A DNA stretch of 64,000 nt, from contig NC_136008.1 of NCBI RefSeq assembly GCF_048128805.1, forward strand, positions 17,091,572-17,155,571. Reading direction: 5' to 3'. The DNA is from Centroberyx gerrardi (lineage: Eukaryota; Chordata; Actinopteri; Beryciformes; Berycidae). A program made the translations under genes and the position numbers. The notes beneath the pieces are model-generated. The model ran no database searches. It had not been told where the DNA came from and worked only from the letters and a program-made list of their open reading frames with translations. Positions 8,410 through 64,000 of the stretch are shown one piece after another (the stretch's first letter is position 1; every line of letters begins with the position of its first letter).

Positions 8410-8484
8410 ATAGCTGAAGAAAAGATATGCAGAGAGGAAGACAGCAGTCATGACCTCAGCCCTAGATGTGGAGAGGGTCAAGCA

Positions 8485-13904: not shown

Positions 13905-13935
13905 TTCTTGCCAGCAGGTATCTAGTTTCCAGGCT

Positions 13936-17809: not shown

Positions 17810-17845
17810 TTCTTGTGGCAGTTGTTACAGTCATGGGTTCCTTCA

Positions 17846-40876: not shown

Positions 40877-43427
40877 TGTTTCTGCAATGAAGAAAATGTT
40901 CTTTACACAGTTACAATTAAATTGAACCATTTTGTGTGAATTGTGTTGTGTGAGTAATTTGTGAAGCCATCTCAGTGGATGTGTAAGTTTTTGGAATCAT
41001 TATTTAGTCTAGTTTGTAGTAGTTATTTCTATTTCCTGGTTGTCACTCATCTTCTGACTAATGAATTAGTCTATAGTCATGTTAAATAATTTACTGATAA
41101 CGTTGTAGGCTACGTACTGCACTTATCGTGAGGGCATGTTGATTACAGCTATTAAACATAAAATGCAACTGACATGAAATACAACCATTGACCAGAAAGG
41201 CATACAGAATAATTTATAACCAAAACTATCAATCTCTATTGGTTGTGTCTTCAAAGCATTTTTTTAAGATCCTTTTCTCTTTCCTTGATCACTGCACAAC
41301 ATCAATGAATGTTTTAACCAGCTTTTTAGGCAGCACATACTATGGATGACAGCTTAGCTTTTTAGCCATACATCAAAAATGATAAAAGCTATAGCTACAG
41401 TGTATAAGTGTAGAGAGGTTTATTCTTGAGTTGGTGTATTGATCCCATCTATGAACGAAGAGAACAGCTGCAACTCAGTCTTGTAAGTTTGTGTTTTGTG
41501 TTTCCTGCTGCACTTAATTATTAATGTTTCCAGTAGTGATCAGGTTTTTTTCTACCTGGTACCAAAATGCAAAATTTCCAAGACAATAATGATTTGTTCC
41601 ACAGTACTGATAAAATGACAATATGGGTGTTAATCATTTAGTTTATATACTCACTAACAAAATACATCATTTAAAATGCTAAATTATTTTCCAGTACTGA
41701 ATGAATGACACTGCAGGGGAAACATACATGCATATAGATAATTGGTCTGTGGAGTTCAAATGCAGTAGACTAATTGGCACAAGATTTGCTTTACAGTGTT
41801 TGTAAAATTTCTGATTTAATGTTTTTTTGTTCCTTTTTTGTTCTTTTGTAGCAAAGCAGTGCAGCATGACATGCCAGGATTGTGGACTGGAGTTTTCACA
41901 CTGGAAGGTTTTCAAGACCCACCTGTGCAGGCATGAGAAGGAAGAGACCAGACGATTGAGTAAAAAAAGAAAAGCTGAGACTGAACAGAACAGCAGTCCA
42001 GAAGACTTGATCTTTGAGAGTGTAAAATATGGAGAAAACAGTGATGTAGATGTGGATGGTGATGTAGATGATGTTGACATTTTGGGCAATTCATTGCAAA
42101 TAAACCCCTCAGACTCAGTCCAAGGTTGTGGAGTTGCCATGGCCTCAGTGGAGGAGAAACCAAGCTTCAGCACCTCTCGGAAGGTTTATGTTTGCTCGAA
42201 CTGTGGGAAGGTTTACTCTTATCCAGAGTCCTTCAGAAACCACCAAAAGATGCATGAAAACCAGGTTAGCAAAAACAGAAGCCATGAGAGTTGCAAAGGA
42301 GCTGCCCACACTACAAGATGGCATTTGAGGGATGAGTATTTAAGGCTCACATAAAGACAAAGTATTTGGTATTTTCTAATGCTGGTGCCTTCTTTGCCCT
42401 TAATAATGCCTCTCTGTCATTGATACTAAATGTACTGGGCATGTTTCTCATTTCTCAATTTCTTTCCCAGTTAAAGGTTACAGTTAAACTGTTAAAGATT
42501 CATGGTTGGGGCTAAAAACAAAAAAACAAAAGAGAGAGAGGGTTAACAATTACCGTATTTGTGCAACTGTGGCAAGAATTCCTCTTGGTGAATTTGAGAA
42601 ATGTTCCACATAACCAACAATCAAATTTTGACGTCAAATACTGTTATGCTAAATTTCTTGAGACTGTCTTCGGTCTGATTATATTGATATCGATTTTTCA
42701 GGTGGTGATATACAAATAATCCTTGTAAGACACATATTGAAGATCTACAACAAAGTAAGCCTCAACAATTCTTGTGTGATGTTGTAAAAGAAATAGGTTA
42801 TTGAATGTATAGCCTACTGTTAGTTTTTGTTATCCAACCATACTTAAACTAAGATGAAGGTAGGTATTCAAAAACATGGTCATGAACTCAAATACAAATG
42901 AGATTTTTGGAATAACAAACTTGTCAACTTGTAAAACTAACTAGGCTAAAATAAACTATGCCTGAAATGTTTGTAGTCTTTGTTTATGTGCAGGGTAAAA
43001 ATGAATGAATTTTGGGCCACACATTTTTGGTTATTTTAACTACGCCATGAGATGCCACTATCCTGTAGAACGACTTGTTTGGCCCTCATACACCTTTTGT
43101 TCTTGGAGGAAGTGCCAGCGTTCACTGTTTGCACAACCCATGTTGAAAATACATGCCAGTCCTGTTTGGGATTATTTAAATAGCCTGAATTCAGATTGCT
43201 GTTGAGTCTGCGAGTGTGTTTAATTTGTGCAGCAAGAATCCAAGTTGGTCCCAATTTGAGGTTAGTTGAGGATGTATTGAAATATTTATGTTATTAATTT
43301 TTTTTAAAGAATTTATGATTTGTTGTTTATTACACAATACATCTTGAAAACGTACAAAATACCTGTTCTGAACTTCTGTCATTATACCTTTAAAAAATAA
43401 CTTTACTAAAACTAGAACTCAAACTTG
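40877..43427 (+). repeat. Duplicated segment A, copy 1 (2551 bp)
   Basis: Repeated at 43844-46394 with a constant offset of 2967. I found no difference in the stretches I compared, and all peptides from both copies are the same. It carries the orphan two-finger exon. The right edge lies inside an AAACTA-rich repeat that continues in copy 2 but is cut in copy 1. Confidence 0.97.
41852..42354 (+). CDS. Orphan two-finger C2H2 exon, copy 1
   Basis: A good acceptor (TTTGTTCTTTTGTAG) ends at 41851. The exon opens with CA, so it needs a donor ending in phase 1. From the first internal ATG it would read MTCQDCGLEF. It encodes one finger (CQDCGLEF...THLCRH), a basic patch (SKKRK), an acidic spacer with DVDVDGDVDDVD, a second finger (CSNCGKVY...HQKMH) and a 31-residue tail to TAA. 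No first exon is evident in the duplicated segment. The donor of exon 1 of the 28-finger gene (32104, phase 1) would fit, which makes this a possible alternative last exon; otherwise it is a remnant of a lost paralogue. AATAAA lies at 42950-42955. Function is unknown. Confidence 0.5.
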
Positions 43428-43843: not shown

Positions 43844-46394
43844 TGTTTCTGCAATGAAGAAAATGTTCTTTACACAGTTACAATTAAATTGAACCATTTT
43901 GTGTGAATTGTGTTGTGTGAGTAATTTGTGAAGCCATCTCAGTGGATGTGTAAGTTTTTGGAATCATTATTTAGTCTAGTTTGTAGTAGTTATTTCTATT
44001 TCCTGGTTGTCACTCATCTTCTGACTAATGAATTAGTCTATAGTCATGTTAAATAATTTACTGATAACGTTGTAGGCTACGTACTGCACTTATCGTGAGG
44101 GCATGTTGATTACAGCTATTAAACATAAAATGCAACTGACATGAAATACAACCATTGACCAGAAAGGCATACAGAATAATTTATAACCAAAACTATCAAT
44201 CTCTATTGGTTGTGTCTTCAAAGCATTTTTTTAAGATCCTTTTCTCTTTCCTTGATCACTGCACAACATCAATGAATGTTTTAACCAGCTTTTTAGGCAG
44301 CACATACTATGGATGACAGCTTAGCTTTTTAGCCATACATCAAAAATGATAAAAGCTATAGCTACAGTGTATAAGTGTAGAGAGGTTTATTCTTGAGTTG
44401 GTGTATTGATCCCATCTATGAACGAAGAGAACAGCTGCAACTCAGTCTTGTAAGTTTGTGTTTTGTGTTTCCTGCTGCACTTAATTATTAATGTTTCCAG
44501 TAGTGATCAGGTTTTTTTCTACCTGGTACCAAAATGCAAAATTTCCAAGACAATAATGATTTGTTCCACAGTACTGATAAAATGACAATATGGGTGTTAA
44601 TCATTTAGTTTATATACTCACTAACAAAATACATCATTTAAAATGCTAAATTATTTTCCAGTACTGAATGAATGACACTGCAGGGGAAACATACATGCAT
44701 ATAGATAATTGGTCTGTGGAGTTCAAATGCAGTAGACTAATTGGCACAAGATTTGCTTTACAGTGTTTGTAAAATTTCTGATTTAATGTTTTTTTGTTCC
44801 TTTTTTGTTCTTTTGTAGCAAAGCAGTGCAGCATGACATGCCAGGATTGTGGACTGGAGTTTTCACACTGGAAGGTTTTCAAGACCCACCTGTGCAGGCA
44901 TGAGAAGGAAGAGACCAGACGATTGAGTAAAAAAAGAAAAGCTGAGACTGAACAGAACAGCAGTCCAGAAGACTTGATCTTTGAGAGTGTAAAATATGGA
45001 GAAAACAGTGATGTAGATGTGGATGGTGATGTAGATGATGTTGACATTTTGGGCAATTCATTGCAAATAAACCCCTCAGACTCAGTCCAAGGTTGTGGAG
45101 TTGCCATGGCCTCAGTGGAGGAGAAACCAAGCTTCAGCACCTCTCGGAAGGTTTATGTTTGCTCGAACTGTGGGAAGGTTTACTCTTATCCAGAGTCCTT
45201 CAGAAACCACCAAAAGATGCATGAAAACCAGGTTAGCAAAAACAGAAGCCATGAGAGTTGCAAAGGAGCTGCCCACACTACAAGATGGCATTTGAGGGAT
45301 GAGTATTTAAGGCTCACATAAAGACAAAGTATTTGGTATTTTCTAATGCTGGTGCCTTCTTTGCCCTTAATAATGCCTCTCTGTCATTGATACTAAATGT
45401 ACTGGGCATGTTTCTCATTTCTCAATTTCTTTCCCAGTTAAAGGTTACAGTTAAACTGTTAAAGATTCATGGTTGGGGCTAAAAACAAAAAAACAAAAGA
45501 GAGAGAGGGTTAACAATTACCGTATTTGTGCAACTGTGGCAAGAATTCCTCTTGGTGAATTTGAGAAATGTTCCACATAACCAACAATCAAATTTTGACG
45601 TCAAATACTGTTATGCTAAATTTCTTGAGACTGTCTTCGGTCTGATTATATTGATATCGATTTTTCAGGTGGTGATATACAAATAATCCTTGTAAGACAC
45701 ATATTGAAGATCTACAACAAAGTAAGCCTCAACAATTCTTGTGTGATGTTGTAAAAGAAATAGGTTATTGAATGTATAGCCTACTGTTAGTTTTTGTTAT
45801 CCAACCATACTTAAACTAAGATGAAGGTAGGTATTCAAAAACATGGTCATGAACTCAAATACAAATGAGATTTTTGGAATAACAAACTTGTCAACTTGTA
45901 AAACTAACTAGGCTAAAATAAACTATGCCTGAAATGTTTGTAGTCTTTGTTTATGTGCAGGGTAAAAATGAATGAATTTTGGGCCACACATTTTTGGTTA
46001 TTTTAACTACGCCATGAGATGCCACTATCCTGTAGAACGACTTGTTTGGCCCTCATACACCTTTTGTTCTTGGAGGAAGTGCCAGCGTTCACTGTTTGCA
46101 CAACCCATGTTGAAAATACATGCCAGTCCTGTTTGGGATTATTTAAATAGCCTGAATTCAGATTGCTGTTGAGTCTGCGAGTGTGTTTAATTTGTGCAGC
46201 AAGAATCCAAGTTGGTCCCAATTTGAGGTTAGTTGAGGATGTATTGAAATATTTATGTTATTAATTTTTTTTAAAGAATTTATGATTTGTTGTTTATTAC
46301 ACAATACATCTTGAAAACGTACAAAATACCTGTTCTGAACTTCTGTCATTATACCTTTAAAAAATAACTTTACTAAAACTAGAACTCAAACTTG
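43844..46394 (+). repeat. Duplicated segment A', copy 2 (2551 bp)
   Basis: Second copy of 40877-43427. Its right neighbour is the rest of an AAACTA-rich repeat, not segment S. Confidence 0.97.
44819..45321 (+). CDS. Orphan two-finger C2H2 exon, copy 2
   Basis: Same 503-base exon as at 41852-42354, with the same acceptor, phase requirement, stop and downstream AATAAA (45917-45922). I see no difference between the copies. A possible internal donor (ACCAG followed by GTTAGC) follows the second finger in both, so the printed stop may be bypassed by splicing. It lies 3.2 kb upstream of the first exon of the piggyBac-fusion gene. Confidence 0.5.
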
Positions 46395-46560: not shown

Positions 46561-48230
46561 CTTCACAATCTTGTCTAGAATAAAGCTTTATCTTTAATTC
46601 TATGTGACTCATTAGACAGACTTATTTTTTTCTCTCTGTAATAAGCTGCAACAATAAAAGTTTGCATACAGCTCTATGTTTACTTTTGTTCATACTGGTC
46701 AGTAGGCTGGTTTAATTGACTGAAATCAGTAGTGAACTGGTAAGCTGTGCAGTGCAGTGGTGAATGCAGTATAGGGTGCTCACATAGTAAATCTATGGTC
46801 AGTTCACAGGAAGTTTTTCTGTAATGATGGGGTGTCACAGTGGGGGAATCTCTCTCAAGCAGCTGAACTGTGGAGGATCCTACAATATGTTGCAACAGCA
46901 CCACCAACTGGCCGCTACGCTTTCTGTTTCTCAGGTCTCAGGACAGACCAGGGACTTGTTCAACCATTCACTTTCAGTTCAGTCTATTCAGGGAGTTGAT
47001 TTTTCTCAAAATTTTAATATGACAAATTAAAAGTATTTATCAATGGGAATGTTATTTTATCAATTACTGCTCCACTATCAGTAATTGAATTGCTGTTGTA
47101 ATTGACATTCTTTTCTGAAAGGTGGTGAAACCCTGTGATTATCTGGTGTTGATCTGCTGTTGATGCATGCACATCAGCTGTGTGTTCCAGATACTCAGGC
47201 TTAGTGGATTAGTTTATTCTCTTTTTTTCAGCTTTGCATGAGGACATCACACCTGGATGGTAAAGAAGAGTCGGTGGATGATGGGATGAAGAAATCTCAC
47301 ATGCTGACTTAACCAACAGTTCAAATAGCACCTCTGAGTCTACATCTTGCAGATATAACCTAATGAATAACACATTCCTGTTCCTTTTTCAGTAAAATTG
47401 ATGTCATGTCTAAACGCATCAAAGTTGTAGGTAAGAGTAAAATCAGTATTTGAAAAATGTAAAAACTCTAAAAGGGTAGTAATCTGTGTCATAAAAACAT
47501 AATTAATATCCCTTTTCCATGGAATAATTGGCGGAAAGAAAGGATTTTCTTGTGACTGATATAACGCGGTATACTGAGGCAAGCAAAACAGGGTGTCATC
47601 TTCATGCCCATTGTTGTGCCAGAAATCTAAAAATAAGGAACATAATTGAAAAAAAAAAAATTGACAAGTAAAGTGAATTTAAGTGTAGTTCTACTGACAA
47701 CATCTTGGTCAGGTGCATGGGAGCTCTTTGAGGAAGTATCTTTAATACAAGACATACATTGGGCACAAAATCTTTAATATCATGGTATTTGATAATGAAA
47801 AATTATAATTCCGGTGGTACAATACATAAAATGGGATGATTTCACTATAAAGTAGTGATTTGTTATCTGTTGTGTCTGTTTTGATTGCACTGTATGAGCA
47901 GTTATCCCCTGTCCATTTTGTGACACATAAAGAATAACTAATATGTAGTTGGCCAAGAGAGTAGACTTTCCATAATATGTTTTTTATCCTGTTTTCATAA
48001 ATCATATGCATATACTGTGTCTCTTAGAAAGAAAAACTTTTGTAAGGTTTGAATCTCACACTCGAACATCTGTACATTTCTGTAGCCTATATTTGTGCAT
48101 ACATTCTCTAGAATATTATGTAGGCTGCATTTGGTGCACATTTGTACAGGGCCTTGCTTGCACATTTATTTTTTATATGGTCACATTCTGTTTATATGTT
48201 ACCCCCATCTGTGTGTTAATGTTAACATTT
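46561..48230. other. Intergenic part of segment M, nothing recognised
   Basis: AT-rich DNA found only once in the window. It has short frames without homology signals and a 28-base exon-like stretch near 47232 that is not supported by anything else. Confidence 0.5.
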
Positions 48231-48232
48231 AA

Positions 48233-48259
48233 TAGTAGTAGTAGTAGTAGTAGTAGTAG
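48233..48259. repeat. (TAG)n microsatellite
   Basis: Nine TAG units in a row. Confidence 0.95.
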
Positions 48260-48419
48260 CCTACATTTGAACAGTTGCTTTTGCACACCCTGCACATATG
48301 CTCTTGAATTAAGTCTTGAGTTATGTCTGTGTGAATCGGGTAACTGCATACATCCTTGTATCTGAAAATGTCTTTGTTGCAAGCATGCTGTTTATCCTCT
48401 TTAATTTATTGTATTATAT

Positions 48420-48538
48420 TTATTTAGCGCTATTATACTGCTCTATCATCCTACTCCCTGTTTTTGATTAGATTCTGTTGCTGCAAGAATGCAACTTCCC
48501 CACGGGGATCATTAAAGTTTAATGTTATCTCATCTCAT
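48420..48538 (+). repeat. L2-like LINE 3' tail
   Basis: The end GCAACTTCCCCACGGGGATC followed by ATTAAAGTT and TATCTCATCTCA units is the typical 3' end of fish L2-type non-LTR elements. Only the tail is present. Confidence 0.55.
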
Positions 48539-48559
48539 GAATGAAAAATGTTGACCGAC

Positions 48560-48688
48560 CCAGAAAAACTACAACTTCCGTGACTGCCGCACTCCTCGTT
48601 AGACAGTGACGTCATGATGTCTGCTGCTGGACTATGTTGGCTTTGTGCGAAACGACGCGGAGATGTTTGGGCGGCCGAGTCATCCTAG
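48560..48688 (+). promoter_or_regulatory. Promoter and noncoding exon 1 of the zinc finger-piggyBac gene
   Basis: A palindromic CRE TGACGTCA lies at 48607-48614 and an ETS-type ACTTCCG lies at 48575. CpG content rises in this stretch. The exon ends at 48688 with CCTAG followed by GTAACC. The acceptor of exon 2 ends at 49282. Confidence 0.5.
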
Positions 48689-48882
48689 GTAACCTTACAT
48701 CTACATCTCACTGTATTCATACGACTATGGGTGTGTGTGTAAACCGATGGACACAGTAAATGAGTGAATATATGCTATTTCTGCTCTGTAGCAGGTCGGA
48801 ATTGCAAGCATTTGCAGACTGATTATTCCTCAAAATTAGTTATGTAGGCTAACCAGGCTAACATTATATGTGATGGTTATTG

Positions 48883-49298
48883 TGGACAGATTGTTTTGAA
48901 AATTGTCAGCATGTTAAATTCTGTCCCAGTCCGACATTCAGACAAATTGGCCAGTGTTGAATCTAGGTTTTGCTACTGCGGCCAATGGCTGTCCTCCCTA
49001 CCCATCGGTCTATTGTAATACAAATGTTTTGAGCCCATTCACTCTCTGGTCTCCCAGCTGTCGTTATGTGTGGATCACAAAGATCCTATTTACTCCTTTT
49101 AAGAAAACAACGTCGTTCCTAGAAAATGGGTAGAATACTTTATGGAATGATATAGGCTAAAGGAAATGGTTGATGGTAGGCTAATTTATGTTTTTTTTTT
49201 AAATTGTTGATTTACCTATGTAATTTACAAATATTTCTGTGTTTTGTCTTTGTGTGTGTGTGATACATGTTGTATTTTACAGGTTCCTGATCTTATAT
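48883..49298 (+). repeat. Segment S' (original of the 416-bp copy)
   Basis: Matches 43428-43843 at an offset of 5455. Here it runs through the acceptor at 49282 into exon 2, and similarity stops after 16 exon bases. Confidence 0.95.
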
Positions 49299-49344
49299 AG
49301 ACCTGTATTCAAGTCCATTTGAGGAACCCGAGAAGTAGGGAACC

Positions 49345-52300
49345 ATGCAGAGTCTGACCCAGACGATGAAGAGTGGGCCAAAACCAGCAGAGATTGAGGC
49401 TGGGAGAAAACCAGTGACTACAGAAATCTCGGCGCAACCGTCAGAGATCAAGACCGGGGCGCAACCAACAGAGAGTGAAACAGAAGCACAAGTAGTGGAG
49501 AATAACTCAGCTGTTTTTCTTGAGAATGAAACGGTAATCACAGCAGATGAGAATGAGACTGTGGTGCAACCGCTGGGAGGTGAGACGGCACAAACACCAG
49601 GAAGTGTGTCGGTCACACAAGCAGCGGGGAATGATCCTGCTGTTCAGCCAATGAGTGACCCCTCACATAATACTGGAGGGATGCCAATGGACACAACCTC
49701 AAAGCCTAGTGCCCCTACAGCAGTGGTACCTGATACACCGCAGAATCCGGATTGTGGTGTACAAGAGGTGAGGAAAGTGGATAAAGTACCTGATGGCAGA
49801 AAATACATCCCTTCCAAGAAGGACAGGCTGGACCCTCTGAAGATGGACATGTCCAAGCCAATGGTTATGCCTCTCACATGTGAGTATTTTAGCTTCTTTG
49901 CTGGTAGTTCTACATTTGCTCTTATTCTTTATTGAACCATGCGGGCTAGGGTTGAGCGATGTATCTTTTGCAGCAGTAGCCTAGGGGAAGTTATGGGAGA
50001 GGAGGGGTCACCCACAACCCCTTATTAAAGAGCCTTGTACTGTTGACCACTGACCCACTCTACCGCAGCAGCGCACTTTAGCAGTAGTAATGGGTAAAGA
50101 GCAATATTAGCACATCAGTCACCAATTCCTTGCCCATACAAACTTTTCATACCAGTATGTGTATTAGGAAGGGGGACTTTCTGAGTCTCAAGCTGGCTTT
50201 AACCCCCAGGCTACTGCTGCCCCAGTTGGATGAAACTATAATTACTTTATGCAAGCCCACAACCACATCCTTTTCTTCTTATGCTTCTAGCTTTATACTT
50301 TCTATGTATACTTCCTCCTTCTTTATACTCTTCTGTAGTGTCTCTTTTAATTATTAACATGTTATATGCACACTTTCTTGCTGCCCTATTGTCCTCTAGC
50401 ATCTCAGCTGTCCCTGCAGTGCATCGAGTGCCACATAATCTTCAGCGATCACAAGAGCAAGGAGCGTCATCTGAAGTTGAGCCACCCAGCAGAATATGAG
50501 CAATGTATACTGAGGAATGCCCTTTTTGCCTGCTATGTTTGTGACCGCCACTTCACAAACTCCACCGAGCTCATGGCCCACCAGAAAGCCCATATAGAGA
50601 AGAAACCCTTCAAGTGTCCAATCTGTGGTCAGGCCTTCAACAAGTCGTCAGAGCTCACGCTTCATAAAAAAATTCATTTTGGCCGGGATGGTTATGCCTG
50701 TTCGGACTGTGGCAAACCGTGCAAAACACTAACCTTGCTTAAGTACCACCGCCGCACACACACTGGAGAGAGGCCGTATGTGTGCAAGGAGTGTGGAAAG
50801 AGGTTCAGCATGTCTAAGACTCTACAGAAACATATAGCGTCACACTTACCAGAGGGAACTGAAGGAGATGGGGGAGACACTTCTGCCACTGCTAAAGCAC
50901 CGCTGAAGAAAAACAATGGTAAGACAAATTGGTCAGACGTATTTGTATAGTAATAATGTCACAGAAGTGTGTTTTTATATGGTACATGTTAAAATGGTGA
51001 GGTAGTTTTAGTTATTTCTTTGTTAAGGTTTTCCTTAATACAATGATATAATTTCACAAACCAAACTATGATATCTTCCATGTCACAGGAAATATGTTGA
51101 TAATACTGTGTGGCACTTTTTATGTTACAGTGCAATGTGTTAAAACTTTCCTCCTTTTTTTTTCTTTTGCTAGATGCTTCTACAATAAAATATCCCTGTT
51201 CTGTATGCAAGGCCACCTTCAAGACTACCAAGACACGGCTACATCACATGAAAAACAAGCACAATATGTTGCCTGCAGCAACCAGTAATGCCCTCCCAGC
51301 TGCGCAGCTAGTGAAACAAGGTACACCCATTATAACCCCAATATCTATCTGCCAACCAACACTACTGCAAGTGGAGCCAATTGGACCTCTTCAACAAGTT
51401 GACGCCAACATTGACACAGAGCAGATTCGCAGACTTATTGAGTCTTTGGGAAATGTGCAGAAAGTGAATCAGGTTGTCATATTGGGGCAGGTGCCACCTC
51501 ATGCCCCACCACTGGAACTGCAACAGATATCAGAACTGGGAGAAGCAGTTCATCTGAATTTTACCCCGCAGCAGCTGGGTCTTATAGAGCTAAAACAGAC
51601 TGAGTCTAAGACAGTGGAACTGGAACATTCAAATATCCCTTGTGATTCAATGGAGCACACAATTATATTGGAACCTATTACACCAGATGGACAGTTGGAA
51701 AACCCTTCTTTTTCAGAACTAGGTTCCCATATAGCAACACCTGAAACTATAGGGATAACACTTGTTGAACCTGAGCAAACAGTAAGACATGAGGGAGAGA
51801 TGATACATCAGATTCTTCAACAGCCTGAGACTGGTACAGTTCAATCTGATCCAATGGATCAAATGGTTTGTCAGAGTGAGGAAGTTGACCTCAAACAAAA
51901 CCTTGAGCAAACAATCATATTAGAACTGACCTCTGCCTTGATGCCAACTGTGGAGTTAGAACAATCCCAATCTGTACCGCAAAGTGAAATGCCATCCTCT
52001 GTACTAGTGCCAACCACTGAATTGGAGAAGACTTCTGATGAGACTGTTATAGGTCAGCAGGAGACCAGCCTATCTGTTCCACCACTTATGCCTACAGTTG
52101 AGTTGGAACTGACACCTTTACAGACAGACCAACAGGACCTTCCTGCTTGCCCTTTTGTCCCAACAGATGCATTTACACAAAACCACAATCCAGGTGAATC
52201 CCAAACTAATCCCAAAGGAGAAGCTGATTCACAGATACAAACAGTGAGGCTGGATGAGGTCAATTCTGTGATAGATGGAGCCACAGTAGAAGAGACGCAT

Positions 52301-55300
52301 GAGAAGCCTGAACAAGAACCATCTGAGAAATTGCTGGTAGATAGCAGAGAGAGTCAGGAGCAGTTGGAGGTGTCCAGAGAGGAGGACACGTCTACTAAAG
52401 AAGAGGTCTTGTCACAGTTGGAGACCAAGCAGGTGCAACAGATCTCACACCCACCCATAAATGTAATGTCAGCTCAAGAACTGGTGAAAGTACGGAAAAG
52501 AAAGCCAACCCGGGCATTTATTTTTCAAGAAAATATGCAAGAACTGGCATGGACCACACAAAAGGATGATTTACAAATTGATGAAAAACCTGCCAAACGC
52601 CAAAGAACAAAAAAGTCTCGCCTTGTTGTTAAATTTGGTCCACAAAACAAAGACAAGAAAACCAAAAAACAGAAGAAGCCGTCACAGCCACTTCAGTCGA
52701 CCCAGGAAGAACCGCTAAAGGGTAAAGCATCAACCACAACTCTGTCAGAGAAAAAATTGCCATCACAAAAGAAGGGAAGAAAAGCAAAAAAAGACAAGAA
52801 AGAAGAGCATTCAGTATCCACAGCAGAAATAAAATCAACTTCCTCTACCCATGATCCACAAGTGCAACATATTAAAGAGGATACAAGAAAAAATAAAATG
52901 AAAAAGCAAAAAGACGTGGTCAGTGAGGGTGTGGAGGATATAAGTGAGCAAGAGGTTGTAGCCTCACCAGTATTTAAGAGGAAAAAACAACAGAAAATCA
53001 TGCAAAAAAGTCAGCCCAAGAGAACAAAGGCTGGAAAGTTGACAAGTAAGGAGAGAAAGAAAAAACTGACAAAGGAGCAAAAAATGAATACAGAAACAAG
53101 CACAGCATCTGCAAACATGCCTGGCCCACAAATAACACAAGACTCTCTACTTCTACTGAAGGGTCATAAACAGCCCCAGTTAAAAGTTTATAAACTAGAT
53201 CCTTCAAAGGCATCGGGCCAGAAACAGGAGCCTCCACCTCACGAGTTACAGACAACCTCTCAACGGAGAAAAGACATCACACGCAATCAGCGAAAGGATA
53301 CAACAACTGAGTCTGCAAATAAACTCACAGCTGGAGGTAAGAAAAAAGGAGGGAGACCCAAAAAGAACCAGAAAGCTCTTTCATTGTTGTCCTCTCTACA
53401 ACTATCCCCTCCACCATCTGACACTCTGCCCACCAAGCCAAAGACCACCCGAAAACGTAAAGCCTCCTCAAAGGTGGAGGCGGAGGGAGTGATAACCTCG
53501 TCTCATTCCAGGCGTGCTTTAGAGTGTAAGGACTGCGGAGAGAGATTTAGTGAAGTCTCCTCCCTTCAGGAACACAAGGCGACAGTACACATCGTGGAGA
53601 GTCCCGGTCTCACTTACACCAATGGAAACATCTTTGAAGGGGTCTCCAGGCTGGATCTATGCCAGCCTCCAAAACTGCATAATGAGGTCATTGGGGTGAT
53701 GAATGCTGCTACAGACTGGGACACTGAGGCTGAGATGGGAGAGATGGCATTAGAAGACAGAGAGCGGAGTGTCTCTTTCCCAGCTTTGAATCCCTCTCCC
53801 TCTTTACCTGTTACTGCTCCAGATGCCGAAGCAAGTGGATATGAAGATAAGAGTGGAAATACAGCTGTACCAGACATTGCATCGTTGATGGGTATTACAA
53901 AAGAGATTCCAGAGAGTCAATGTCTTACCCCTCCAGAAGTTCTGTCACCGTGTCTCTCAAAGGCTGATCAAATGAAAAATGAGTCAAAAAGGGAGGCCCC
54001 TCCATGTTTATCATCTAATACCCCTTTAAATAGCTCTAGCCAGACAAAGGGTTCTGAGGCAGGAGGGGCTTTGGTATTAGATGAGGGCAAGCCAACATGT
54101 CAGACCAGCAGACAAGATATCCCCAAGAATCCCTTGCTTCCCAGCTCAGAATCGGAAGTCCAGGGTGCCACAGATGAAGACATTAAGGAGGGTTTACTTC
54201 TTGATGTAGATTTAGTCACTGTTGGGGAGCAGAATGAGCGAAATGATCCAAACTTGGCTCAAGAGTGTGGCTCCCAAATTGAACCTTTTGGACCCCGTAA
54301 TCCTGAAAGTGGCAGCACTGACACACTCGTACCTCCTGGTCAGATGGATAATGAAACGACAACTGAAACAAGCCTAACGTCGCAGACTGTTTCATGCTCC
54401 ACACATCAGCCAGAGATCAAAGAAGAGGAGGAGGAAATTTTAGTGCAGAGAAAAGAAGAGGGAGCGAGAGGAGCAGTAAGGGGTAGGAGACGAGGGACAG
54501 GACGTCTAAGAAGGGGCGTGATGTCAAGGAGAAATTCAGTTGGTGATAATGTCAGACGAACAGAACCAGAGAAAGAACCGGATGAATGTCAGGTAGTCTA
54601 CGAAAAACATCCACACACATCTGATTCTGAAATCAATGAAAGTGAGACCAGCACACCTCAGCATACTCAGTCAACATCCCAGAGTTCACAGCCAGAGATG
54701 AGCCCCACATTTGAGCCCAATAAAGGCACCGCTTCTACCACATCTGTGCCTTCTGTGCCCTCTTCATTAGAGGAATCTCCTGGAGAGCAGGTTGTCTTTG
54801 AGCTGGAGTCCGTTACCACCAGTGTTGTGGAGGTAATGATGTCAGAGGAAAGGCTGGGACTGGAGGGAGGAGAGGAACACGACAGAGAGGCTGGCCAATC
54901 TCCAGGCATTATACTTGAGAGGTTCCTCACTTCTAGACAGAGAGAGACTGCTGACAAGGAGCAATCGCTGATGGCAATAAGCAACAATCAAAGACAGGTG
55001 AGGATTTTAAGTCAGCTAATCAATGAAACAACGAATGGTGTATATTAATACTACGCTTAAGTTTAACTTTATTGATCCATTTAGGAAATTCATCTTGTCC
55101 ATGGGGCACAAACAAACACACATTAACAAGAAGCAAATGACAGCAGGTCTAAGAATACATTTTACAGGTCTAAAGTAGTTAGAGTCTAAAATAAATAAAT
55201 GGGTTGGTAGCAATAAAAATATTTGCACAGCTTATGAGATTGTAAAACAAAAATCAGTACTGACTGTTGAATACATTAATGGCAGCAGGAGCAAAGGACT

Positions 55301-58300
55301 GCTTGAACCTGGTTGTTTAAATTTAGCGCTGCAATATTCTGGCTCTCTGACTCATTTTAAATTTCTGGTGTAAGGGATGAGTGTAGCCATTCAGAATAGA
55401 GTGGACCTTATTTAAAATAGGGTCAGTGTAGAGCCGAGCTACTGGCACCTGTTCAATTCCTATGATCCTACTCGCTGTCTTTATTATGTGCTGCAGTTTG
55501 CTACGATCTGAACTGAACAATGTAATTATTTTAAATGCTACTGTTTTTGTTCCAGGGTTTGGACAGCATTGCTGAGAACGAAGTGGTGTTCAGGGAAGTC
55601 CCGAGAGGCCAGGAGATCAAGGTTGAAGAGAATATCTCAGATCCACCACTGGTTGCACACACCTGTCACAGTAGACAGAGAGTGGGCCTGCCGCCACAGA
55701 ACCAGCATGATATAAGGACAGTTCTAGTGAAGGAGGAGAGCTGCCTCATTCTGAATGATGCTCAGGCCACACAGGGCAGTAGACACATCCGATGGAATGT
55801 GGAGCAAATCAACATTGAAAACACCTCTGGTCCACGTACGTATTGGGGTCAATTGTAGGTTACTTGTAGAATTTGTATAACTTATTTCTTTGTTCATGTT
55901 ATGTCTTTCGAATAGTTAATCGTAGGCAGGTGATCATCAAATGTCTTGATAGATTTGGACTAGAATCTGTGCACTATGGTGACTAGCTAAGTGGGAAGAA
56001 AAGCCTTCTTAGGGCTTTGTTGTTTCAGAGACAGATGAACCATTTTTAGGGCTTTTTGTTTTCAGTGATAGAGAGCGATGAGACGACCAGCGCCTCTAGC
56101 ATGGCCCCTGACTTAAACTCCAACCAGTGCATCTTCTACCCAGTGAAGGAGGAGGAGAGGGAGGTTCTACTGGGAGGCTCTCAGAGTGACGATGGTGTTT
56201 TAACTGTGGGCGTGTCCAGTGATGCCAGGATTGGCCAGCAGACAGAACATCGGCCAGCCAGTATTAATCTGCGTACGTTATTGTTTTATCCAGTTACCAG
56301 CATACCAGTCATTACAGGAAGACTTCTATTTCAATGTTGTCTGCTTTGATTGTTTACAACAGATGAAGGGAGCCATGCCACAGAAGACTACCAGGAAACC
56401 AGAGTGAGAGGGACACTATCAAGAGCAGGGGTTAATGACTTTGCAAATACAGAAGGTTTGTTTAATGTAATACAAACTTATAATGACCAATATGTATAAC
56501 CGCTTTGTCGAGGTCCGTCAGCTGTTTATTATAAATGTTAAACACAGATGATAACTTTTCTTCCAGCTGTGGCAGACATTGAGGGGCAGGATAGACCACA
56601 GCTTCGGGACTTCCTTCTCCAGAGTTCTGATGAGGAGGACTCGGCTGTTTTTGAATTGCCTGATCCTCAGCTTGACTCGGAGGCAGAAGCCATGGCCTGT
56701 TACTACAAGAACCAAAACAGCAGCCCACCACAGCCAAATGAAACGTCACACAAGTACCGTACAGCCTCATTTATTCAGACTTCAGTCTTTCAAACTGAAC
56801 AGCTATTGAAACATAAAGTATGAAATGGGCAATGTAGTGATGCAAAAATGGCATTTTATTAATTGTTCCCTTTTATACTCGGGATGCAGTGATAAATCGA
56901 CCACTGATCATAATTGGTAGAATACTCATTCTAAACAGGTCATCTGTGATTGGCTGAGCACTGTTTCAACTGCCTGATCTCAAAAGAATGGAATGTTACC
57001 ACTCACCCTATTACCACTACAGGTGGTAATAGGGTGAGTAAGCACCTATGTTTGCATAAAAACAATGATTTATTTACACATGGTTAGGCCAGCAATGTCA
57101 TGCAGCCATAAGAACAATCTGTTAAACACAGTGTTATATTGAAATTTTACTGTTTATGCTTGCTGTGCACTTTTACATAATGTGCTGTTGCCAGTAGAAA
57201 GTCTGGGTAAAACCAAAACACATCAAATCAGCCGATCACACAGTTACAAAATTGGTAATCCCCAAGTTAAATGAAAGTTAAATGAAACATATATTACATA
57301 TATTATTGTGAAGTTTGTGACCCATCAACTTTTATCAGATTATTAATATTTTCCTTTCAATATGTGCAGGAAAGCCCTTAAAATTTTGTACTACTGTACC
57401 TGCCAAAGTCATTGCCCACATGCCAGATCATTACTATTCCTTGCTCTGCTGTTATGTGGTTCTCGCTTGTTTGATCATATTTTATTTCTTATTCTCCCCT
57501 AGCTTGCCAACCCCAGAGAACCAGCTCCATTCCCATTCACTAAGAGAAGGAAGCGGGAGCAGAGAGCCCATTGATTACTTCTCCAAGTATTTTGGTTGGG
57601 ATACCTGGGTAGAAATTGCCCAATGCACAAATAAACTGTCCAACATGCCCAACCCTGTCACAGCCAAAGAGATTGCACAGTTTGTTGGGATCCACATTGC
57701 AATGGGAACTTTGAAGGTTAGTGTTCCTGTGTGACCCATACCTTGATTGTCAACAGTTTGCTTGCACCATTGGTTAGACTGCAAGACTAGAAAAATGAAG
57801 CAAGTATTTTATTTGATGATGGAATAACTAACAAATACCAGCCTCTATTTCATTTCTTGTATGTTATAATTTATTTGGTCTCTTCTGTCACTTTTCAGTT
57901 TCCCAGCCTGAAGCTCTACTGGCAGGACTTTACTAAGGTACCCCTGATTGCTGAAGCCATGCCACTTTCCCAGTTCCTCCAGCTGTCTCGCAAGCTGAAG
58001 CTAGCTTCTCCTGCAAAGGATCCAATCAACAATGTTGGGGAAGAAAGAAATGATTGTGACATTCAAAATGTACAGCAAGCTACAACTAATACTAGTGCAA
58101 CGAGCAGTTGTAATAGTAGAAACGGTCAAATTTCTCTGCTTAGTGATGGGCAGGGCCAAGGGGACAAGCCAAATGAGCTGAACTGTTCGAACACACAGAC
58201 TGATCCCCTTTGGAGGGTTCAGCCATTACTGTGCCGTTTCCAAGCAGGATGCCTGTTGCTGAGACGAGAGGGTGATTATGGAGTTGATCAGTATCCTCTT

Positions 58301-59209
58301 CCTTTGACGACCGGGAAGATAAGCACTAACAAGCCTTCTCTCCACTGCACTACATTAATTGGATTTGGCGGTCTGGTCCTACATTTGGATCTTAAATTGG
58401 ATCTCTCAGACAAAGAAGATGCCGTAGAAAAAATGGTCCCCAGAGGTAGTATGGTGTTTCTTTGCAAGCAGGAACTCTCTACCCCTGCAATGCTAGAACG
58501 TCTATTAGTTGCGGGGGTTCATGGTGCTGGCAGGGTGGGAGGAGCGATGGGACAAATAGGAGATGAGTTTATCAGCTCAGATGGGAGGCTGATGTTGCGC
58601 AGGTCACATCGTGGTTTCATACTTTCTACGGTTGGAAATGGCCAGAGAAACATGGCGTCTCTCACTGACAACTTCGAGAAAGCCCAGATGTCAGCTCGCC
58701 TCAACAGAGACTTACAAAATCTTTACCGTATCCCGCTCACTGCCTCAGCCCCAACTTGCTGGCCTCAAGCTGTGCTGTGGTACCTTACAGATCTGGCTTT
58801 GGTCAACTCATGGCTTCTGTACAGACAGGATCATGGGCCAGTGTCTGAACCTGTGACCCTCATGGCCTTCAGGCTGGAGGTGTCTAAGGCTTTGATCCTG
58901 TCCAGTGGCTCGGACACCCAGGACTCGGTTCCCCCTCAACCCCCCACACAGAAGGCTCATGCAGCAAGTGAAACCCCCAATCCCAACCTGTTAGAGGAAA
59001 GTCCTCTCCCGGATGCAGCCACACGGTACGACGGTTCTGGCCACTGGCCAGAGCAGCTTGGGGAGGGAGAAGGGGGCAGGTGTCGTTTTGGGGGCTGTGA
59101 GAGAACATCTCGAGTGCTATGCCTTAAGTGTTGTGTCTTTCTTTGTATCTCGCGCAACCACAACTGCTTCTTAAATTTCCATAATCAAGGGAGTTTGGGA
59201 AACGAGTAG
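49345..59209 (+). CDS. C2H2 zinc finger-piggyBac transposase-derived fusion protein, 2389 aa
   Basis: Coding exons are 49345-49879, 50400-50918, 51174-54997, 55556-55835, 56066-56272, 56363-56455, 56567-56753, 57503-57716 and 57899-59209. All are GT-AG with matching phases, 7170 nt. An in-frame TAG just before the first ATG fixes the start. Residues 179-380 carry six C2H2 fingers of ZNF576 type (CIECHIIF..., CYVCDRHF...). A seventh lies at 1134. Between and after them are a Lys-rich region (790-1127) with an AT-hook-like GRPKKN, and an Arg-rich RGRRRG. Middle exons carry VKEE sumoylation-type sites and SSDEED. From about residue 1906 the protein is piggyBac-like: DYFSKYFGWDTW, VTAKEIAQFVGIHIAMG, SLKLYW, a LTDLALVNSWLLY segment, and a C-terminal Cys ring (CERTSRVLC...NCFLNFH). 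One catalytic Asp may remain (GVDQ); two appear replaced. It is probably a domesticated nuclear DNA-binding protein. Confidence 0.88.
55058..55530 (-). repeat. 5'-truncated L2-like LINE in an intron
   Basis: On the minus strand a frame at 55520-55323 encodes LQHIIKTASRIIG...LYTDPILNKVHSIL...HPLHQKF, and a further stretch reads FKQSFAPAAINVFN. Both match the C-terminus of L2-type reverse-transcriptase polyproteins. The element ends at 55058 in the usual AATTTCC...GGATCAATAAAG tail. It sits antisense within the intron 54998-55555 and nearly fills it, its broken 5' end being about 25 bases from the acceptor. Only the last part of the element is present. Confidence 0.75.
57001..57039. repeat. Perfect 17-bp inverted repeat with 5-base loop
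   Basis: Arms at 57001-57017 and 57023-57039 (ACTCACCCTATTACCAC and its exact complement) flank TACAG. It lies in the intron between the acidic exon and the first piggyBac-domain exon. No surrounding similarity to a transposon end is seen. Confidence 0.9.
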
Positions 59210-59697
59210 TGTTCACTCCAGAGTTAACGGTTTACTTATTTATTTATTCGTAAACATCTTGCTTTCTGATTTAGAATGTAACTGTGATTTCAGATAAAAC
59301 CACATGTAAAGCCAGCTATTCAAGACAACTGTATTATCCCCTCTGTCTCATAATTTTTCCATGATGCCTTTCAGTGGCAGCCTCATTCTTTTCCAGGATT
59401 ATTGTGCCGCAGGTTAAAAACTAAATGCTTTGTGATGTGGCTTGTAATGGTCTTCCTAATGTTTTTTGTCAAGTGTGAAATGAATTTGCCTTCAGAAGGA
59501 CATGTGAAAAGAATCATAGCCATACAATTTGTGCTGGAAAAGAGGTGGAAATTGATTTTGAAATTGTCATTTCCATGTTTTTTTTTGTTTTTTTTATTAT
59601 TTATTTTAACCTGAATCAATTTACATTCCATATGACAAGCTTGTGTTTGGCTCATGGGATTTTAACATTCTTATTTATTTGACCTTCAGTTAGAAAA

Positions 59698-59703
59698 AAT
59701 AAA
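59698..59703 (+). terminator. Poly(A) signal of the zinc finger-piggyBac gene
   Basis: A canonical AATAAA about 490 bases past the stop, the first on this strand after it. Confidence 0.6.
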
Positions 59704-59709
59704 TGAAGT

Positions 59710-60147
59710 ATTTTTAAAAAAAAAACTTTGTTATTGACTTCTTTGAGGACTCCTGACAAATGTTTGCATTCTGGTCTTTTTTTTTTTTTTTTTTTTTACT
59801 AATTTGTAGAAGATGCATAACTCAGAACTTTTCCTGAGCCAGTGGAGAGGTAGTCATGTGACCCTGGCCTCTAATTACATACACTGAATGTGCAAAACTA
59901 ACTTACTCTTTTCATGAATGCAGATCAGTTAGAGAAGGATTTCTGAACTCAATAAACTAAATGAAATTCAATAGCAGTACCTAAATATTTTGCACATTAT
60001 ATAGCAAAAACACGACAGACATTATGCACTTAGGAAAAACATATTCAAACATATACATTAAGGTGAGTTGGGTCACATACTTGACATACCCGCGTGTTTT
60101 TCTGTGTGGGCAGATATTAAGTTAATGCTTTGATAAGGTTATTTGGG

Positions 60148-60191
<44 letters not shown>

Positions 60192-60949
60192 AAAACAAAA
60201 CCAAGTAAAAAGCAAGAAGTTCTTTTTCAGGTTGTGCTGGGTCACGTGACAGGGAATCAACCATAGAATCGGAATGAGTAGAACAGGGTTTCCATTCAAG
60301 TCTACATTCATAAAGATATACTAACATGTCAGTGTCGTAGGCTATTTGTCTCATTTTTTTTCAGCATTACAAATCTCCAGAATATCAACTGTTCAAAAAA
60401 AAGCATCGTTGATGTGATGTAGATTTATAGATATATAGATTAGCTATATGCACCAACCGTCAATAAATGCTGGTTTGAATGAACAACCTTTGATATCATA
60501 AAGGCACAAAATTCTAACATTAAGACAACAACACATGGTTCAATTATAGTCTATGTCAATTAATCAATGGACAAAATTTATCAAAGGGCAAGCTACATCT
60601 TGACTACAGCTACATCACCTTTTTTGTTAATATCCCTCCTGTTTGAAACTGTGACAGCTAGGCTACATATTTTTCTGCACGCGTGGCAAAGTCTTTTTTT
60701 TTTTTAATCCTAGAATTTATCATATTTTTTCATTTGCGGAAAGGGTTTCCACATTATTGTTTTTTAGTTTTGGATTGCTTTCTCATATTTCTTTCTAGTT
60801 ATCACAGTGCGGGAGTTAGTGCTGCTCTGTCTCCACCTCTCTTCGGCAGTGGAGCGATTGATCTTTCGATCGATTGATTCTAACAGTGCCATGCGCTGTC
60901 CAAACATTAATCAGTGCTTATTTCCATGACAACCTAATCAAGAGTCAAT
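59710..60949. other. Intergenic DNA with simple repeats
   Basis: It contains a T run near 59778 and a GT microsatellite at 60151-60189. No exon or RNA gene is recognised. Confidence 0.6.
60151..60189. repeat. (GT)n microsatellite
   Basis: About 19 uninterrupted GT units. Confidence 0.97.
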
Positions 60950-61091
60950 GGCAGCCATCTTAGTTGTACCAATGGCGATTACCATGATGCACCAGGAAGT
61001 GTCCGTTCTATCCATTCTATTTCTCTAGGGTCAACTCTCAACAGTCAAACTGTCTGCCCCGCTCTGGCTGCTTTCAAAAAAGCGGTTCGAG
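60950..61091 (+). promoter_or_regulatory. Promoter and noncoding exon 1 of the ZNF576-like gene
   Basis: It contains GCCATCTTAG (YY1-like) at 60953, an ETS-like CAGGAAGTG near 60993 and a donor (TTCGAG followed by GTATGT) at 61091. The next acceptor ends at 61806. Confidence 0.5.
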
Positions 61092-61806
61092 GTATGTGTC
61101 TAGTGGCTTCTTTCTTTATTATGCAAATAGCTTACTCTATGTATCGACATCGACGTAGATGGTATTGATTTATGGCAGGCTTATGCAAACACTAAACAAT
61201 GAGTTAAAACTTGGTGTGTAAAAAAGGTAGAAAAGTATTCGATCCCTTTTTGAACTGCGAATGGCAGCCAGTATGATACGCTAGCTAACTAGCAGCAGCT
61301 AGCTAGCTGCTAGCTAACGTTAGCCAGCTCGCTAGCCAAGTACTTTCTGATTAGGTAGTTGCACAGACGTGAAACAAAGGGGTTGCATTTACCTTTCTGC
61401 ATATGATTTTTGCGCTACCATCTAAACACGTGATTTCATTTTAACCACTTAACGCTAGGCCGGATTCCCGTATGCTAACATTTAGCTAGTTAGCTAGCGG
61501 CCTTGCAAACGATAAGGTAATGAAACTTCACTGATTCATGTGTGGAGATTTGACAAAATACTACATCCCGTGGACTATTGCTTGTATAAATTAACTTCTC
61601 CAAGTTGCCCAAACCTAGTTAGTAGAGTTGGCTAGCTAACGTTATAGTCATTTGTTGGACGTAGTTGATTGGTAATCTAAGTACTTGCATTACGAGTAGG
61701 CTAAACAACAAAGTTAGCTAACTTGGATAACTTAGCCCAGCAGCTATCCAAACAGCTGTCCTATTTTGTATTTGAAATGTAATATTTATTTTTTTGTTGA
61801 ACCCAG
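61092..61806 (+). other. Intron 1 of the ZNF576-like gene, rich in GCTAGC words
   Basis: It holds a dense cluster of AGCTAGC/TAACGTTA words at 61280-61330 and 61480-61645, including an exact 18-bp palindrome at 61294-61311. No exon is seen. Confidence 0.5.
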
Positions 61807-61850
61807 GACCATTGTTGTTGGTGCCTGTTCAGACCATCCAGTGTCCCAGG

Positions 61851-64000
61851 ATGGACTCAGACATTTTGAATATAGAGGAGATAGTGATGGGACGGGGATT
61901 GCCAGATCCACCTCCAGAAGTTCCTTCTGAAAAGCCAGTGGAACCCTACACATCCATCACTATCAAGGCGCCTCCTGCAGCTTCTGTTCAACCATGTGAG
62001 TGGTGCTGTAATCATAGCTTCATTTTGGCAACAAGAACTGAAAGAATGAACTGTTCTTGGTACAATCTTTCAAATCTTCTCCTGTTTCCACAGACCAGCA
62101 TGAGAATCTGCAGTGTTTTCAGTGCTTTATCACATTCTGCAGTGCCAAAGCCAAGGAAAGGCACATGAAAAAGAGCCACCGGGAAGAGTATAAGCAGCAG
62201 CTTCAGCAGGTAAACTTCACAATATCTGCTGTCTTACATAACACTGGCAACACTAGAAAGGGTGATGTGTTTTTTTTGTCATTTACAAATTCTGTGTGTC
62301 CAATGACAGCCTGTGTTACTTAAGATTTGGAGGAACTGGGAGAGAAAGTAAGCTCAACTGATTAGCCAGCCAATCTGCCTCTTGATGGAAGTTGTTAAAA
62401 CACTCCCTCAGGTTGACAATGCAGATGTGCATTTATGATGTTTGAATATCCGTTGTTTTGGAAAGAGGATTAGTGCCTCAGTAATGGTATTGTATCTGAG
62501 TAAAACATAATACTTGTGTCCATTGCTAATTGGCAGCTGACAAAGCATGAAAATGGGGCAGGGACGTTTCTTTTCGGTGCTCATGTAATATATGTTTAAA
62601 TTGTAATTGGTGTTCATGACAAGTTTTCCTGTAATTTTCCTGCCAGTGTTTTCAACCCCATGTGGTGAAATCCAGAAAGGGGGATAAGGGAAAAGACAGG
62701 CCAATCTTTGACAAGACCTTTCTTGATATTGCAGTATCCATTCTTTCTCGCACTTGAGGTGAATTTCTTCTGCCCCTGAAGGTGCACAAAGTAGTTACAG
62801 AAGCAAGCTTTTTATGCTTTAAGTAGGCATCATTTTCTAGTAAATGCAGCACACCTAGGCCAAAGGTACCATCTGCAGAATTTTGTCATTATTATATTGC
62901 TGTCAAGTCAGTGGTATTCCAATGGAAGCAAAATTGTAGCCGCAATAGTCATAGTCAGTAGCGCAAGTAATATGCTATGTGCTTTCATGTGGTACAGTTT
63001 GAGTTTTAGGTCAATTATTCTGTAAAGTCATATGTTTATTTGATAGCCTAGGCCTATAGCTTAATTATCTATGTTTATTTTTTTATGCTACTTGAATACA
63101 TGTGACAGAATGCAGACTGTATATGTCTTGTACCATGTTACTGTGTTAGATCAATATCAATATAACCCTATGCCAATGTCACCGAGACAAATTCCTGTAC
63201 ATTGCTTGTACTTGGCGAATAAAGTGAATCTGATAAACTATTGTTCAGCATTTCAAAATTTAGCCTTTGTCTCGTATTGTTTTAAATTTGTCTCATCAGG
63301 TCTTTATTTTTCCTTCACAGGGAAATACATTGTTCACCTGCTATGTGTGTGATCGCTCTTTTCCATCATCTGAGGAACTGACACAGCACCAGCCGACACA
63401 CAGCAAGGAAGACAAGCCCTTCAAATGTGTTCACTGCAAGGAGAGCTTCAGAATCTTCTCTGAAGTGAGTGTTAAAGTATGTGATGTGAGTGTTGCCAGT
63501 GGAATCCAACTGGTGATCAGGGGCAATTTGCAATCAAGTCTCTGCACTGCACTCATGTTAACCTTCTGAGTGTTGAGCAGTGTTATAAATCTCTGATTAA
63601 AAAGTATCAAGTTACTGTTTACAAATACCATTACTAACACGTGCCAGTTTGGAGCAAATTGTGGAATGTTAAGTTTCACTTTTGTTTTCACAACGGGAGG
63701 CTCTGTCAGATTGAGTGCAGTGCTGCTGATTACTGGTCTATGCATCACCAAATGACAAACATGATGTGATGTACACATTAGGTGCAGCATTAGAGATAGA
63801 TTTAGATCAGTTTCTATACATTGACCAACTTTTTATTTTGTGGTGGCCGTGCTGATATTGTGGTGGTCCGTCTATGTATGGGGAAACACTGAATAGTGTA
63901 ACTATGCTACAGTTGCTTCAGATATTGTGCACATTCTAGTCTTTCATCTAATTATTCTGTTGCATTTTCTACCTCTGTCCCTCTCAGCTCACAACCCATA
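61851..64000 (+). CDS. ZNF576-like C2H2 protein, 5' part (3' end outside window)
   Basis: Exons are 61851-61995, 62094-62209, 63321-63464 and 63988 onward, with phases 1, 0 and 0 and GT-AG junctions. The start is the first ATG after the acceptor at 61806. The first 48 residues are acidic and Pro-rich (MDSDILNIEEIVMGRG). The first finger (CFQCFITF...KERHMKKSH, EEYKQQLQQ) and second (CYVCDRSFPSSEELTQHQPTH) match, in order and in the unusual ERHM and SFPSS words, the start of human ZNF576 as I remember it (CLITF...ERHMKREH, SFPSSKALITHQ). A third finger (CVHCKESFRIFSEL) crosses the third intron. It is also the closest relative of the finger block in the piggyBac-fusion gene, whose equivalent fingers sit in one exon. 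The product is probably nuclear; its function is not known. Confidence 0.85.
62210..63320 (+). other. Intron of the ZNF576-like gene, nothing recognised
   Basis: The intron runs from GTAAAC to TTTTTCCTTCACAG. No repeat or extra exon is recognised. Confidence 0.7.

Follow-up and report, generated by a model that had tools for sequence, protein, structure and literature searches.

A candidate zinc finger-piggyBac fusion gene in the fish Centroberyx gerrardi, with retained binding domains and a decayed catalytic core

Fusions between host proteins and transposases, including zinc finger-transposase ones, are already known, and published cases involving piggyBac are few, as far as we have met them in print. 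The present analysis concerns a stretch of 64,000 nucleotides from the fish Centroberyx gerrardi (contig NC_136008.1; this whole stretch is hereafter called the window), in which a candidate gene at 49345-59209 appears to join an array of C2H2 zinc fingers to a C-terminus derived from a piggyBac transposase. Among the domesticated piggyBac genes, PGBD1 carries a SCAN domain and is not known to have a multi-finger array.

In terms of architecture, the protein POGZ offers a close parallel, since it combines scattered N-terminal C2H2 fingers (7-9, as compared with 7 patterns at the present locus) with a C-terminal DNA transposase, within about 1200-1410 residues against 2389 here (PMC7386202). 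Its transposase is nevertheless of the pogo type, with the domains DDE_1 and HTH_Tnp_Tc5 and a DD35D triad, whereas that of the fusion matches piggyBac (PF13843) and has lost its triad. No Pfam match to either pogo domain was listed in exons 1, 2, 3, 8 and 9 or in the linker formed by exons 4-7 (for exon 2, among the best 25 of 37 families). Judged from its predicted domains, the fusion therefore resembles POGZ in architecture without being a POGZ member, and by descent it stands with the domesticated piggyBac genes.

Among the latter, CSB-PGBD3 (ERCC6-PGBD3) likewise splices a host N-terminus onto a piggyBac transposase lying 3' of it, by the exon-trap route (PMC2268245), but its CSB part is not made of fingers and its complete transposase lies in one intron and is joined by alternative splicing, while the transposase part described here is interrupted by an intron and has a decayed core. 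PGBD1 and PGBD2 are domesticated piggyBacs lacking the DDD triad (PMC6143343) and possess upstream host exons, but their transposase is contained in a single 3' exon (PMC2268245). The PgmL proteins of Paramecium are also triad-less and domesticated, with a suggested architectural role (PMC6143343); they differ in being ciliate genome-rearrangement proteins, and the excerpts of that source mention no C2H2 array. Tetrapod host-transposase fusions, such as KRABINER and others, associate transposase parts with host regulatory domains (as cited in PMC12062965), but the large survey cited there is described as covering tetrapods, and the excerpts do not mention a fish C2H2-piggyBac fusion. No fish zinc finger-piggyBac fusion was recognised among the titles and abstract openings of the papers listed in literature searches. 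Fish PGBD proteins are named in PMC8086355, in passages that do not give their architecture, and it is quite likely that existing annotation already includes the gene with some generic name.

We consider it probable that at this locus, whose searched exons occur only once in the genome, a multi-finger C2H2 protein of the fish host acquired an old piggyBac transposase as 3' exons and now serves as a DNA-binding regulator. A preliminary description of the window, made from the sequence alone, had proposed nine coding exons with consistent phases. Rebuilding the exon chain reproduced it in full, with all borders of the GT/AG type: the nine exons on the plus strand (Table 1) gave one open frame of 2389 residues, which starts with the ATG at 49345 and ends with the stop codon at 59207-59209. 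The same description favoured fusion, domestication and loss of catalysis, and these proposals gained ground from the single occurrence of the exons searched, from a 507-codon open frame with a core that is barely recognisable, and from the selective survival of the binding parts.

The C-terminus had been derived from piggyBac, and a domain search with DDE_Tnp_1_7 (PF13843) had been proposed. With this profile, exon 8 alone scored 29.3 bits (profile positions 2-53) and exon 9 alone 21.7 bits (positions 56-106), just below the cut-off of 22.4; once joined together with exon 7, exons 8 and 9 reached 67.3 bits (E = 2e-18), covering positions 2-106 of 349. Continuity of the profile across the intron 57717-57898, which the preliminary description had placed within the transposase, is good evidence for the exon 8/9 splice, and a misreading of this intron was ruled out on the same ground. 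No match was obtained beyond profile position 106, and the remainder was identified by aligning it with other piggyBacs of this genome. The predicted C-terminus is, on these similarities, of piggyBac descent and belongs to the piggyBac superfamily. Comparison with solved structures by phmmer gave no piggyBac match for the C-terminus, its only match being a DNA topoisomerase (E = 1.9). For this reason, catalytic positions were mapped via L001, an intact transposase of the same genome which matches the solved piggyBac (6x67) and piggyBat (9c0f). In piggyBac, the catalytic residues are D268, D346 and D447, the dimerization/DNA-binding domain covers residues 117-263 and 457-535 and the Cys-rich domain residues 553-594 (PMC7351741). 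Seventeen inverted pairs were listed in 56500-60600, none of which was judged to be a piggyBac end pair around exons 8-9, no search having been aimed at TTAA or end sequences.

The uneven decay of this predicted C-terminus constitutes our best evidence for its putative domestication. Columns were considered conserved when at least 80% identical among the aligned transposons of the same genome. The alignment took in 11 of the 18 later loci (L022-L028, L031, L032, L037 and L038), the first piece of L031 being cut to 320 residues; L029, L030, L033-L036 and L039 were left out, as were the earlier piggyBac loci L006, L008, L010, L011 and L014-L016, and L029 joined the controls at a later stage. In L030 (C24:20565500-20572500), a piggyBac fragment runs into a long stretch of N, and its frame of 1059 residues is a gap or mask artefact.

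The protein of the window keeps 7 of 9 conserved columns in the first half of the dimerization/DNA-binding domain and 6/6 in its second half. All six conserved Cys/His columns of the Cys-rich domain are kept as well, in agreement with the C-terminal ring of cysteines reported earlier, and only 6 of 29 columns survive in the catalytic/insertion domain. The difference between binding parts (19/21) and core (6/29) is significant in a one-sided Fisher test (p = 8.1e-7), while the lowest value among 19 transposon rows was p = 0.042 (L003). It is worth noting that L002, L022, L023, L026, L027, L032, L037 and L038 keep at most two Cys-rich columns, probably through an early end of their open frame, and that L013b lacks most of the first half; these eight rows and L013b are poor controls among the 19. 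Alignment by hhalign against the transposon profile, which needs no column counting, agreed with the column count: the N part of the window protein gave E = 1.5e-10 and its C part (second half and Cys-rich domain) 1.1e-13, compared with 0.0028 for the core, or 0.11 with slightly different core borders. In six control transposases, the core reached E <= 1.2e-31 in every case. Residues 2330-2389, comprising the Cys-rich domain, gave 2.6e-7 (probability 89%) when aligned alone.

As to the catalytic triad, the position of aspartate 2 (58463-58468) reads Cys-Lys and that of aspartate 3 (near 58697) reads Arg or Leu, by alignment; both were replaced in 3/3 alignments, as the preliminary description had deduced from the altered VDNFYTS and late GGVD motifs. 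Its suggestion that one aspartate survives in GVDQ was borne out in part, the Asp at 58286-58288 being aligned to the first catalytic position in two alignments and not in the third. Several core segments were missing in the alignment to transposons. A single triad mutation fully abolishes the activity of the T. ni transposase in vitro (PMC6143343), and the replacement of aspartates 2 and 3 makes it very unlikely that the predicted fusion protein still cuts DNA. The lost triad and the copy number together suggest that the piggyBac part is no longer mobile.

Neutral decay was simulated on exons 8-9 (507 codons, substitutions only, 300 trials per rate). The frame remained open in 102/300 trials at 0.02 substitutions per site, in 25 at 0.05 and in 6 at 0.1; it was open in 0/300 at each of 0.2, 0.3, 0.5 and 1.0, with 9.0 stops on average at 0.2. 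Part of the distance to the transposons reflects differences between transposon families, and the distance cannot all postdate the capture. A core mostly lost upstream of a zinc domain with all its ligands kept, within an open frame, nonetheless points to selection acting on the predicted C-terminal protein.

Table 1. Features of the candidate fusion gene (positions in the window; residues in the 2389-residue product)
Feature	Position	Strand	Description
Exon 1	49345..49879	+	Start codon, acidic low-complexity N-terminus, residues 1-179; without Pfam family
Exon 2	50400..50918	+	Five C2H2 patterns, residues 186-327
Exon 3	51174..54997	+	C2H2 patterns at residues 360 and 1136, basic region, Arg-rich stretch
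Intron 3	54998..55555	+	Repeat family at about 55059-55509; AATAAA at 55190 and 55212
Exon 4	55556..55835	+	Acidic linker with IKVE and VKEE (SUMO-like) motifs
Exon 5	56066..56272	+	Linker with VKEE motif
Exon 6	56363..56455	+	Linker
Exon 7	56567..56753	+	Acidic linker
Intron 7	56754..57502	+	Repeat family at about 57046-57260; without AATAAA
Exon 8	57503..57716	+	First part of piggyBac dimerization/DNA-binding domain: YFSKYFGWDTW ... EIAQFVGIHIAMG
Exon 9	57899..59209	+	Remaining piggyBac-derived region and stop codon
Decayed catalytic and insertion domain	58271..58726	+	Approximately residues 2078-2229; from alignments and hhalign
Dimerization/DNA-binding domain, second part	58757..58969	+	W..YLTDLALVNSWLLYRQD..FRLEVSKAL; conserved columns 6/6
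Cys-rich (cross-brace zinc) domain, C-terminal	59081..59182	+	Ligands C2348 C2353 C2361 C2364 C2376 H2381; isoelectric point (pI) 9.1
Polyadenylation signal AATAAA	59698..59703	+	First AATAAA 3' of the stop codon

Splice sites were scored with a hand-entered vertebrate matrix and ranked against all GT or AG dinucleotides in 48000-62000. Most of them ranked high: the exon 3 donor scored best (12.2 bits, top 0.3%), followed here by the exon 4 acceptor (11.2 bits, top 0.4%), the exon 1 donor CAT|gtgagt (top 1.1%), the exon 8 donor (top 1.8%) and the exon 8 acceptor at 57503 (8.2 bits, top 2.1%). The exon 6 acceptor was middling (top 15.6%). For exons 4-7, 4 of 36 donor combinations were open from ATG to stop, and donors 55835 and 56753, chosen in the preliminary description, yield the 2389-residue product. 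A second possible donor for exon 7, at 56817 (3.6 bits), was rejected, as arithmetic places it out of frame with the acceptors 57503 and 57517. A codon score for which four further reading frames of the window served as training set ranged from +0.04 to +0.37 bits per codon for the open frame in the nine exons, and from -0.17 to -0.32 for the introns tested (4/8) and the 3' flank.

The zinc fingers of the preliminary description were recovered as seven C2H2 patterns, of which exon 2 holds five and exon 3 two. Pfam zf-C2H2 (PF00096) scored 82.4 bits in exon 2, over 4 stretches and with several fingers above the cut-off; the exon 3 finger at residue 1136 fell under it (23.3 against 25.2) and that at residue 360 was weaker still. 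The preliminary description classed the fingers as ZNF576-type, a putative likeness. The same description mentioned AT-hook-like and Arg-rich regions. An Arg-rich stretch is present near residue 1454, beyond a basic region at about residues 791-1130 (pI 10.4), and the AT-hook-like strings KKKGGRPKK (residue 1075) and VRGRRRGTGR were found as well, but no Pfam AT-hook was listed for exon 3 at E <= 1, so that AT-hooks as such were not confirmed. In the linker, exons 4-5 contain three psi-K-x-E (SUMO-like) motifs against 0.08 expected from shuffles of these exons, and exon 3 contains IKEE and MKNE. Exon 7 is possibly the old N-terminal tail of the transposase.

Copy searches covered exons 2, 3, 4-7 and 9 in the host genome (778.9 Mb, the window lying at C12:17091572-17155571). 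Exon 3 and exons 4-7 matched only themselves. The best match of exon 2 elsewhere showed 43% identity and corresponded to ordinary zinc fingers (150 of 1539 candidates scored). Exon 9 likewise had no second copy; among its 16 other matches listed, the five best were 31-36% identical in the C-terminal part only, with short pieces of up to 45% over 33 residues. The recent insertion of a live transposon was ruled out on the basis of these low identities and of the absence of a second copy of exon 9. Matches to PF13843 in the genome amounted to at least 123, some of which were used as reference transposases. In a tree that left out L002, the window row grouped with L012, L037/L013b and L028 (support 99/96), but its end branch was the longest (2.14), which makes the exact donor family unsure. 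Searches of viral contigs with the piggyBac alignment and of bacterial and archaeal contigs with exon 9 gave 49 and 33 pattern matches, respectively, none of which was confirmed.

A number of observations weigh against a domesticated, DNA-binding fusion gene. Among the controls, L029 has an intact single frame and displays a milder form of the same pattern (17/21 in binding parts and 14/29 in the core, p = 0.019), although its core remains readily recognised (E = 1e-24). Exon 9 includes a stretch of some 50 residues without counterpart in the transposons with which it was aligned. The donors of exon 7 (1.1 bits, top 30%) and exon 5 (1.4 bits, top 27%) are weak, and the exon 7-8 splice is the weakest link of the gene model. 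The reading frame of exon 8 extends without a stop upstream to 57321 and includes an ATG at 57420, and a separate start is possible. In exons 1, 4, 5, 6, 8 and 9, another frame scores equal to or higher than the open one, so that the codon score reflects exon-like composition more than the frame. Finally, the Cys-rich domain of Paramecium Pgm, a domesticated piggyBac, binds histone H3 and not DNA (PMC8086355), and DNA binding can therefore not be deduced from the fold.

Locus L029 (C12:569500-573200) holds an open piggyBac frame of 617 residues in which the second catalytic position reads YLASS, aspartate 2 being lost and the Cys-rich domain kept. It is possibly another domesticated copy on the same contig.

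The alternative that survives best is a special form of the fusion reading and compatible with it: as with CSB and CSB-PGBD3 (PMC2268245), one promoter may give rise to both a finger-only protein, through polyadenylation in intron 3, and the fusion protein by alternative splicing. Exon 3 can indeed be read into intron 3 up to a stop at 55046-55048, followed by two AATAAA within a repeat. These signals sit in a repeat, however, and may be unused, and the exon 3 donor and exon 4 acceptor are among the strongest splice sites of the gene. Such an isoform is conceivable, though we would not expect it.

A less favourable case can be made for two adjacent genes, namely a zinc finger gene that terminates within exons 3-7 or beyond them and, under its own promoter, a distinct domesticated piggyBac gene made of exons 8-9, whose first exon may be longer than modelled or have escaped notice. 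The intron 3 stop with its AATAAA signals, the weak exon 7 donor, beyond which exon 7 could continue as far as a stop codon that ends at 56823, and the open frame upstream of exon 8 would all suit this arrangement. Against it, intron 7 has intron-like codon scores (-0.19 to -0.26), including the part preceding 57503, and this acceptor is the best one within 57300-57560. Exons 4-7 are open in the phase that joins exon 8, no AATAAA was found in intron 7, exon 8 contains no in-frame Met before the YFSKYF motif, and SUMO-like motifs occur both in exon 3 and in exons 4-5. Repeats occupy introns 3 and 7, with 48 other matching pieces listed in the same genome for the former and 39 other copies for the latter (40 of 276 candidates scored). 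The missing Met and AATAAA, the two repeats and the SUMO-like motifs on both sides favour a single gene comprising the predicted exons 1-9, and we regard two genes as unlikely.

The repeat of intron 7 is adjoined by a perfect 17-nt inverted repeat (57001-57017/57023-57039) with a loop of 5 nt. It was not accepted as a transposon end, as it sits in a repeat-bearing intron.

It is also very unlikely that exons 8-9 represent a functionless, decaying transposon copy that by chance is open and in frame behind a finger gene. The abundance of PF13843 matches in the genome and the loss of the catalytic core could be read in this sense, but the lack of a second copy of exon 9, the low identity of the other matches and the 507 open codons, where neutral decay at 0.2 substitutions per site would leave several stops, argue otherwise, as do the 12/12 conserved sites kept in the C-terminal binding parts behind a lost core. 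A still active enzyme targeted by its fingers is hardly credible, since in spite of the GVDQ Asp and of PGBD5, reported to be an active protein whose catalytic domain is divergent (PMC12324416, PMC6143343), aspartates 2 and 3 are replaced in every alignment, the core is barely recognisable and several of its segments are missing.

If the candidate is indeed a fusion gene, its likely route of origin would be the capture of a piggyBac transposase as a 3'-terminal 'exon trap'. In the resulting protein, the C2H2 fingers would choose the sites, the two halves of the piggyBac dimerization/DNA-binding domain would make it a dimer, the basic Cys-rich domain might add a contact with DNA (or histones) and the SUMO-like motifs of the linker might recruit chromatin factors, the whole acting as a nuclear DNA-binding regulator. 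We infer the transcript of the fusion, its nuclear location, dimerization, DNA binding, SUMOylation and regulatory role from these predicted parts.

The window holds a cluster of zinc finger genes, with Pfam C2H2 matches in the frames 8392-12057, 25178-28897, 35308-39792 and 41815-42354; the first three have similar tails of the form H-Y-x-x-H-A-R-G. The frame 3174-4655 has Cys/His-rich stretches for which Pfam C2H2 was not confirmed. Two regions located 2967 bases apart, 41679-42185 and 44646-45152, have the same translation on both strands, which suggests either a tandem duplication of very recent date or a duplication in the assembly. On the minus strand, the frames 13900-14415 and 17843-18325 are nearly identical and about 3.9 kb apart, the first one matching trypsin (PF00089). 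A Myb/SANT-like frame (PF13873) at 21509-22099 is followed by a glutamine-rich frame at 22232-23167.

Fusion of host regulatory domains with transposases is a recognised route to new transcription factors. A more far-reaching idea, which we hold to be doubtful, is that the fusion would be a piggyBac counterpart of POGZ, with a C2H2 array coupled to a dead piggyBac dimer and a Cys-rich reader, and that it may recognise relic ends of related piggyBacs of the same genome as a regulatory network or as silencing targets. As for the fusion reading itself, it can be put to a direct test, since the genome still contains distant relatives of the donor element. If that reading holds, with the cutting core decayed and the binding and dimer parts intact, the gene would represent an independent, convergent solution to that of POGZ, and one natural protein would separate the uses of the piggyBac fold from cutting.

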